Source: Actinomycetes bacterium (GTDB taxonomy: Bacteria > Actinomycetota > Acidimicrobiia > Acidimicrobiales > RAAP-2). Taken from it: 64,000 nucleotides of DNA. Below the pieces are notes generated by a model, which was not told where the DNA came from, did no database searches, and was given only the letters and a program-made list of their open reading frames with translations. This document shows, piece after piece, positions 23,561-24,931 of this stretch; position 1 is the stretch's first letter; each line of letters starts with the position of its first letter. Where the stretch lies: assembly GCA_021798955.1 (NCBI GenBank), contig JAJZBK010000015.1, positions 1 to 64,000 on the forward strand. The letters are read 5' to 3'. The translations under genes and the position numbers were made by a program.

Positions 23561-24447
23561 GGTGCGACCCTCGGTCGTCCGAGATCGGGTGGTCGTCCGA
23601 CATCGGGGACGCCTGGCTCGGTGTCCTCGAGCGTCCCTGACGGTCCGGGGAGCCAGATCGGGCAGCGGCGGGGACGAGACGAGCCGCGCCGCCCGGCGGC
23701 CACCACCAGGGCATGGCGCCGTACGAGGCTCCCGCTGCCGTCGCCGGCCCCTTCCCAGCGGGACGCCTCGACGGCCAAGGTGAGGTCGGGGGGCTCGGGC
23801 CACCCGACCTCACCAGGGAGGACGACGAGGACGGCTTGGCGCTCGCGGGCACGGGCCACCAGACGCCGGGCCACGGCCGGGCGGGGTGGAACAGGCGGAT
23901 GGACCACCACCAGCCCGGTACCGTCGAGGAGCGCGGCGGTGACCTCCCCCCAGGCGGAGCCGGGACGAGGAACCAGGGCAAGCCGCTCGAGGACGACCCC
24001 GAGCCCGACGGCGGCCTCGGCGCCCACGTCCTCCACGCCCACCACGGCACACCACACCCCCTGGGTGGTGGCCGCTGCCACCAGGGCCAGGGCCAGGGTC
24101 AGCTCTCCTCGGGCGGGTACGTTCGAGGGGGCGGGCGCCTGCTGGGCGGAGAGGGCAGCACCAGGGCTTGGAAGCCCGGAGGTGACGACCAGGGTCCCGC
24201 CGCGCCGAAGCCCCCCGCCGACCATCAGGGGAACGAGCGGTGGCAGGACGGCAAGGAGCCGCTCGCCCCGCCACGAAGTGGGCCGGACCCGCTCGGCCAG
24301 CGCCGCCAGTGCCGCCGACCCAGCCAGTGCCGCCGACCCAGCCGGTGCCGCCGACCCAGCCGGTGCCGCCGACCCAGCCCGGTCGCCGTCGGCCCCTGCT
24401 CGACGGCGAGGGCGACCCGGGGGGACCTCGGTGGGGAGAGCGAACAT
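23557..24447 (-). CDS. imuA': ImuA' (RecA-like mutasome protein)
   Basis: The third mutasome partner, a RecA/SulA-related protein that regulates DnaE2. It has 296 residues. After a basic N-terminus come four copies of an 18-bp repeat (Ala/Gly-rich, residues ~22-46). The RecA-like fold follows: LLAVLPPLVPLMVGGGLRRGG TLVVTSG, LTLALALVAAATTQGVWCAV, LDGTGLVVVHPP, and RRLVARARERQAVLVVLP. The proposed ATG at 24447 lies inside the SOS box, with a -10 hexamer 8 nt upstream, so the mRNA is probably leaderless. It is first in the imuA'-imuB-dnaE2 operon. Confidence 0.87.
   Translation of the reverse strand: MFALPTEVPPGRPRRRAGADGDRAGSAAPAGSAAPAGSAALAGSAALAALAERVRPTSWRGERLLAVLPPLVPLMVGGGLRRGGTLVVTSGLPSPGAALSAQQAPAPSNVPARGELTLALALVAAATTQGVWCAVVGVEDVGAEAAVGLGVVLERLALVPRPGSAWGEVTAALLDGTGLVVVHPPVPPRPAVARRLVARARERQAVLVVLPGEVGWPEPPDLTLAVEASRWEGAGDGSGSLVRRHALVVAAGRRGSSRPRRCPIWLPGPSGTLEDTEPGVPDVGRPPDLGRPRVAP
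24311..24382 (-). repeat. 18-bp x4 tandem array inside imuA'
   Basis: Four units GCCGCCGACCCAGCCGGT (small variants in the first and last) on the plus strand. In frame they encode an Ala/Gly/Ser-rich segment. Confidence 0.95.
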
Positions 24448-24461
24448 ACGTTCGTATGGTA
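24441..24461 (-). promoter_or_regulatory. SOS (LexA) box and -10 of the mutasome operon
   Basis: CGAACATACGTTCG at 24441-24454 is a perfect CGAAC-N4-GTTCG actinobacterial/Gram-positive LexA box. On the minus strand TACCAT (24456-24461) is a good -10 whose start point would fall at or next to the imuA' ATG (24447). LexA bound here would cover the transcription and translation start. Confidence 0.85.
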
Positions 24462-24520: not shown

Positions 24521-24728
24521 CGATACCATGGACGCACCAGGGAAAGGAGGTGGTCCAACTGAGCAGTCAACGATCCGGGACCCTGGAGGTGGCTGGCCGC
24601 TGAGGCGGCTCGCTGAACCACCTGGCGAATCCCAGCCAGACACCCACGAGGTCGCCCAGCCGGAGCTGGTCCCATCCGGCGCAGCACGGCGGCCTGGTGC
24701 GCAGTACCTCAGCACGACAGAGCACTGA
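24521..24728 (+). other. Leader-like element: extended SD, 14-codon ORF, competing pairings
   Basis: AAAGGAGGTGGTCC at 24543-24556 is complementary to almost the whole anti-SD end of 16S rRNA. CTG at 24559 opens a frame reading (M)SSQRSGTLEVAGR, ending at TGA 24601-24603. AGGTGG occurs twice (24548-24553 inside the SD, 24587-24592 inside the ORF), and both can pair with CCACCT at 24618-24623, giving mutually exclusive structures. A further hairpin GCCGGA/TCCGGC spans 24659-24680. A second frame, from ATG 24528, stays open and stops at 24728, 1 nt before the terminator stem. It could be a small-protein gene or a regulatory RNA. Not recognised as a named family. Confidence 0.5.
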
Positions 24729-24729
24729 T

Positions 24730-24759
24730 GCCACGGGCGCCCTTCGGGGCGCCCGTGGC
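24730..24759 (+). terminator. Perfect 13-bp UUCG terminator hairpin
   Basis: GCCACGGGCGCCC - TTCG - GGGCGCCCGTGGC, fully paired. It ends the leader-like element and precedes the lipoprotein gene by 172 bp. Confidence 0.85.
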
Positions 24760-24931
24760 GCGTCACGAGGGACGGTGCGTCACCAAAGGCGGGGTGCGAG
24801 GAGCCGCAGTGCCAGAGGCGGGGTGCCCCATCGACGCGGGGGAGCACGACTAGTCTCCGTCGGGGGCAGGCTGCAGGTGCCCGACGACCAGGGTGAGCCT
24901 GGTCGTCGGTCCGGACTAGGGGGTGGTGGCA

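Follow-up and report, generated by a model that had tools for sequence, protein, structure and literature searches.

The window is the whole stretch of 64,000 nucleotides that was analysed, taken from an actinomycete of the order Acidimicrobiales. On its forward strand, between a divergent operon that includes a DnaE2-like polymerase gene and a lipoprotein gene, lies a compact intergenic element. This element combines a putative promoter of its own, an unusually long Shine-Dalgarno (SD) sequence, a micro-ORF, several helices and a terminator-like hairpin. All features below are on the forward strand.

24524..24529, forward strand: putative promoter of the element itself, -10 box TACCAT, with the transcription start expected near 24535-24537
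24536..24705, forward strand: full-length RNA homologue of Rfam RF02471 (Ms_IGR-5)
24537..24540, forward strand: P1 5' arm CCAG, pairing with CTGG at 24583-24586 (codon 9 and the first base of codon 10)
24543..24556, forward strand: extended SD AAAGGAGGTGGTCC, pairable over 14 of 14 nt with the 16S 3' tail GGAUCACCUCCUUU, one pair being G-U
24552..24556, forward strand: P1b 5' arm GGTCC, pairing with GGACC at 24578-24582
24559..24603, forward strand: micro-ORF supported by comparison, CTG start, 14 codons (LSSQRSGTLEVAGR), stop TGA at 24601-24603
24577..24582, forward strand: pseudoknot arm GGGACC (codons 7-8), pairing with the loop GGTCCC at 24668-24673
24588..24597, forward strand: P3 5' arm GGTGGCTGGC (codons 10-13), pairing with GCCAGACACC at 24635-24644
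24596..24609, forward strand: P4, a small GCCGC/GCGGC hairpin whose loop contains the stop codon, less strongly supported
24622..24639, forward strand: P5, hairpin CTGGC/GCCAG
24659..24680, forward strand: P6, hairpin with the stem GCCGGA/TCCGGC and the pseudoknot loop GGTCCC
24730..24759, forward strand: perfect 13-bp TTCG hairpin, terminator-like in sequence, with no U-run

The original prediction had described this segment as a possible attenuator or micro-gene, and the long SD match, the 14-codon frame, the GCCGGA/TCCGGC stem and the 13-bp hairpin were all found where it had placed them. The RNA family had not been recognised. A search of Rfam with relaxed thresholds gave a single strong match for the window, RF02471 (Ms_IGR-5). 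This match is significant over the full model (1-184, E 1.3e-7), and its score of 38.7 bits does not reach the gathering score of 45. A genome of the same order (G339) scores 45.9 bits, above this cut-off, and therefore the element in the window is treated as a divergent, full-length homologue of RF02471 that misses the formal cut-off, as judged by its alignment to the model. The two share the full-length alignment, conserved blocks in the same order and a single-copy intergenic setting. In contrast, the Rfam structure printed in the alignment lacks the pseudoknot between ORF and loop as well as P1 in the form described here, and the micro-ORF is absent from the Rfam description and from the accessible publications. 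Ms_IGR-5 is an sRNA of actinobacteria, described in Mycobacterium and Streptomyces, and its expression has been reported for M. smegmatis (PMC10454040), S. lividans (PMC8079986) and S. avermitilis (PMC8780764). Ribosome footprints on MS_IGR-5 have been reported in M. abscessus and M. smegmatis, with the authors urging caution as footprints are common on non-coding RNAs (PMC4974804). In the open-licence literature, no publication was found on a function of Ms_IGR-5 or on a reading frame within it. The S. coelicolor RNA scr4389, whose flanking genes fit the right neighbourhood, is a candidate for the same RNA.

The element is widespread. In a DNA search of 61 genomes it was conserved in 32, counting the one that holds the window. 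With a pattern search it was detected as a single copy in 56 of 118 good genomes from the order, and the reversed pattern gave none. A scan of named genomes returned at least 119 stretches with the element; among the 80 matches listed, nearly all belong to uncultured Acidimicrobiia or Actinobacteria, accompanied by Ilumatobacter, Candidatus Microthrix, Desertimonas, marine MedAcidi and two labelled Acidobacteria. When the RF02471 model was run against a sample of the phylum, 70 of 396 genomes matched, the strongest matches being in groups that are Mycobacterium-like and Streptomyces-like by their neighbouring genes. Of the loci with a changed frame (see below), a pattern search across 36 genomes from the class of G360 yielded only three, all known already. 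A search for a phage origin of the element gave no match.

In 90 of 143 loci, a box of the form TANNNT is located exactly at -22/-23 relative to GGAGG, compared to a frequency of about 0.14 per position elsewhere, and at this fixed distance the RNA would therefore be expected to start at P1. The extended SD is nearly invariant in an alignment of 116 sequences, and its complementarity to the 16S tail over 14 nt is far above chance. The 16S 3' end GGATCACCTCCTTTCT was taken from three genomes of the window's family; a search for it in the window's own MAG found none.

Downstream of the SD, the frame containing GAG GTG is open in 143 of 144 distinct loci, whereas the remaining two frames are open in 60 and 53. 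The stop of the GAG GTG frame is found at one and the same position of the RNA in 143 of the 144. As the sequences are related, such counts are not independent events. The stop codon itself varies (TAG in 100 loci, TGA in 33, TAA in 11). The start codons are exclusively AUG-like, namely CTG, ATG, TTG, ATC, ATT, GTG, ACG and ATA, with non-canonical codons making up about two thirds of the 144 starts. With few exceptions, non-canonical starts are found 8 nt after GGAGG, and canonical starts at 9-12 nt. Complete micro-ORFs, present in 143 of 144 loci, occur in shuffled sequences at a mean of 40 when the spacer is shuffled and of 1.1 when spacer and tail are. Because the 144 loci were partly found by patterns, all 70 RF02471 matches were also read for the ORF, to which the covariance model is blind. 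It was observed in 70 of 70, with 10-15 codons, and the distance from GAGGTG to the stop was 14 or 15 nt in every case. By this comparison, Ms_IGR-5-like RNA carries a reading frame that is kept, together with the fold, across distant actinobacterial groups.

The fold was studied by covariation in the same alignment, which is mostly made up of Acidimicrobiia. Considered together, P1, the pseudoknot, P3 and P6 are 92.4% paired, compared to 26-49% when the partners are slid by 1-3 columns, and contain 202 cells changed on both sides compared to 64 in shuffled alignments (0 of 500 shuffles as high); the covariation score is 0.243, compared to 0.136. All four display compensatory changes in relatives. 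P1 is the clearest helix: it has 69 compensatory cells, reaches at least 4 bp in 117 of the 118 Acidimicrobiia and occurs in variants such as CCAG/CTGG, CCGA/TCGG, CCAAG/CTTGG and CCCAGG/CCTGGG. The pseudoknot is fully paired over 5 pairs in 114 of 116 sequences, with 8 cells changed on both sides; GGGAC/GTCCC becomes GGGAT/ATCCC in 8 sequences and appears, by eye, as CGAC/GTCG in the distant loci L057 and L059. RNAalifold recovered the pseudoknot pairs unprompted, with a poor global fold on this long, gappy alignment. In P3, 93.7% of cells are paired and compensatory changes are present, and in P6 all 5 main pairs have changed on both sides. Four loci with a changed frame (L222, L226, L227 and L230) have no P6 and retain P1, P1b and P3 by eye; the pseudoknot is therefore missing there too, and P6 is not universal. 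These four represent a minimal RNA, in which a terminator-like hairpin directly follows P3.

Further helices overlap with the former. P1b is paired in 109 of 116 sequences, and next to P1 its formation would place the core of the SD in a bulge of 11 nt. As P1b uses the same strand as the pseudoknot, the two are mutually exclusive. P5, with 11 compensatory cells and pairing in 90% of cells, is an alternative to P3, since 24635-24639 is common to both. Both P1b and P5 are well paired and vary little, and P1b shows weak covariation because it is nearly invariant. The alternative state of P5 and P1b thus draws on little covariation, and an alternation between the two states is proposed from the overlap of the short ORF with mutually exclusive helices. 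In P4, 81-89% of cells are paired. The original prediction had derived such exclusion from AGGTGG at 24548 and 24587 competing for CCACCT at 24618. These motifs are present, but their role as a switch was not borne out: the pairings are complete in just 71 and 65 of 116 relatives (61% and 56%) and show no compensatory change. The idea of mutually exclusive pairings around the micro-ORF itself held up, though with P1b against the pseudoknot and P3 against P5. A further helix, P8 (GCTGG with a downstream CCAGC), was rejected as too weak, with 70 of 98 paired against a shuffled mean of 59 and maximum of 69. At 24624-24634, just before the P3 3' arm, lies a GCGAATNCC / CCAATCC motif that nearly all members share, whether they are Acidimicrobiia or belong to the clade with the changed frame, and that is a candidate binding site.

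The micro-ORF could be conserved for its product, the RNA being a small mRNA whose 10-15-residue peptide is the functional molecule and whose folds merely tune translation. This is in agreement with the conservation of the ORF, with the xEV[AT]x[RGCS] tail of the peptide in most sequences and with a synonymous fraction in close pairs of 0.33 compared to 0.17 expected, a raw value that ignores kinship and transition bias. However, the peptide is poorly conserved across loci, in which the start, the stop position and the core helices are kept. Its most conserved residues sit over paired nucleotides, and substitutions are as frequent at codon position 2 as at position 3. The codon under P1 is free to encode L, S, R, C, E, Y or W, tracking its pairing partner, so that P1 stays paired. 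In the clade of four loci the motif is even read in another frame, with start and stop position kept and with unrelated GGGCS- or GGDCS-like tails. The peptide may be under some selection, but on these comparisons this is unlikely to be the main constraint, and the small-mRNA explanation is quite improbable. The opposite explanation, also unlikely, is a purely non-coding RNA in which the SD-like stretch acts as a 30S decoy or as antisense to the 16S 3' end and the ORF is a by-product. The 14-nt complementarity to the 16S tail, the often weak start codons and the Rfam annotation as sRNA all fit this, but a start codon that is AUG-like and in frame, together with a stop position that is fixed yet served by three different stop codons, in 143 of 144 loci would be unexpected without translation. 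As the ORF and the RNA fold are kept together while the peptide varies, it seems that the act of translation, rather than the peptide, matters.

A leader function was also considered, as the original prediction had pictured a ribosome-controlled leader or a conserved micro-ORF. Control of the downstream lipoprotein gene by a translation-dependent attenuator would be in line with the terminator-like hairpin and with the position of this gene on the same strand. However, the lipoprotein gene (PF03640) adjoins the element only within the window's own genus, and flanking genes vary between groups: the Mycobacterium-like locus has pabC-like and rhodanese-like genes, and the Streptomyces-like locus has others. 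No conserved regulated gene directly downstream was found across the groups compared. The element is therefore, by its genomic setting, a separate, stand-alone gene and not a lipoprotein leader; the conserved micro-ORF part of the earlier description stands, and an attenuator is very improbable. In other families of the order (L068-L076), a small membrane-like protein gene is often seen by eye upstream, and a small ORF with an alpha/beta-hydrolase-like gene downstream, on the same strand. Another explanation starts from the start codon. The infC gene, which encodes IF3, has an AUU start and is autoregulated through this non-AUG start, and the RNA, though standing alone, could likewise be an initiation sensor, in which a maximal SD combined with a poor start codon makes the fold respond to the level of IF3, initiator tRNA or free 30S. 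The preponderance of non-canonical starts at nearly one spacing, with canonical starts further away, points in this direction, but spacing and start codon may just follow clades, and a sensor of this kind is decidedly unlikely.

The preferred reading, to which we give somewhat better than even chances, is that the element, a homologue of RF02471, encodes a stand-alone small RNA that is gated by ribosomes and has a promoter and a terminator of its own. The homology, the conserved ORF, the conserved helices and the lack of a fixed neighbour gene are read directly from the compared sequences. Translation in this organism, the alternation of folds and a resulting control in trans of how active or stable the RNA is would come in addition. 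The RNA would start about 24 nt before the micro-ORF. As long as no ribosome occupies it, the leader would pair with the ORF (P1, P1b), the middle of the ORF with the distal hairpin loop (the pseudoknot, rival of P1b) and the end of the ORF with sequence behind the stop codon (P3), enclosing the SD and start codon in the fold. A 30S subunit would bind the unusually long SD and would have to initiate at a codon that resembles AUG and is often non-canonical. On its way through the 10-15 codons to the stop, a ribosome would melt P1, the pseudoknot and P3, by which the P3 3' arm would become free to form P5. Translation would thus switch the RNA between two folds, and the RNA would act in trans. 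A bolder version, tentative and rather unlikely to hold in full, is that Ms_IGR-5 is a phylum-wide RNA class whose conserved function is the translation of a micro-ORF with an irrelevant peptide. Such a ribosome-operated switch, combining a maximal SD with a start codon that is poor by design, would report translation initiation and act in trans.

Compared to known systems, the element shares with infC the translation start at a near-cognate codon, and differs in that infC encodes IF3 itself and here a 10-15-codon ORF lies in a small RNA. Leader-peptide attenuators of the trp and whiB7 type combine a short ORF, alternative pairings over this ORF and a terminator. The element has the short ORF, the overlapping alternative pairings and a terminator-like hairpin, but lacks a conserved downstream gene. 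SgrS and RNAIII are dual-function sRNAs with a peptide as the second function. RyhP/RyhB is also an sRNA that holds an ORF (PMC5331693). These dual-function or mRNA-like sRNAs resemble the element in also holding an ORF; the peptide is the second function there, while here the start and stop positions are conserved more than the peptide. Ms_IGR-5 has so far been listed as non-coding, and here it is seen to carry a reading frame that distant actinobacterial groups have conserved. A conserved ORF would account for the published mycobacterial ribosome footprints on Ms_IGR-5. With the range of AUG-like starts and the freely varying peptide, an orphan sRNA becomes a testable system for the control of RNA by ribosomes.

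On the other side of the element, an SOS-box-like sequence (GAACATACGTTC) is located at 24442-24453, ahead of the divergent operon. The DnaE2-like polymerase of this operon has PHP and Pol III alpha domains, and the two upstream ORFs gave no Pfam match. Within the first gene of the operon, short tandem repeats of the GCCGCCGACCCAGCC type are present at 24310-24380.
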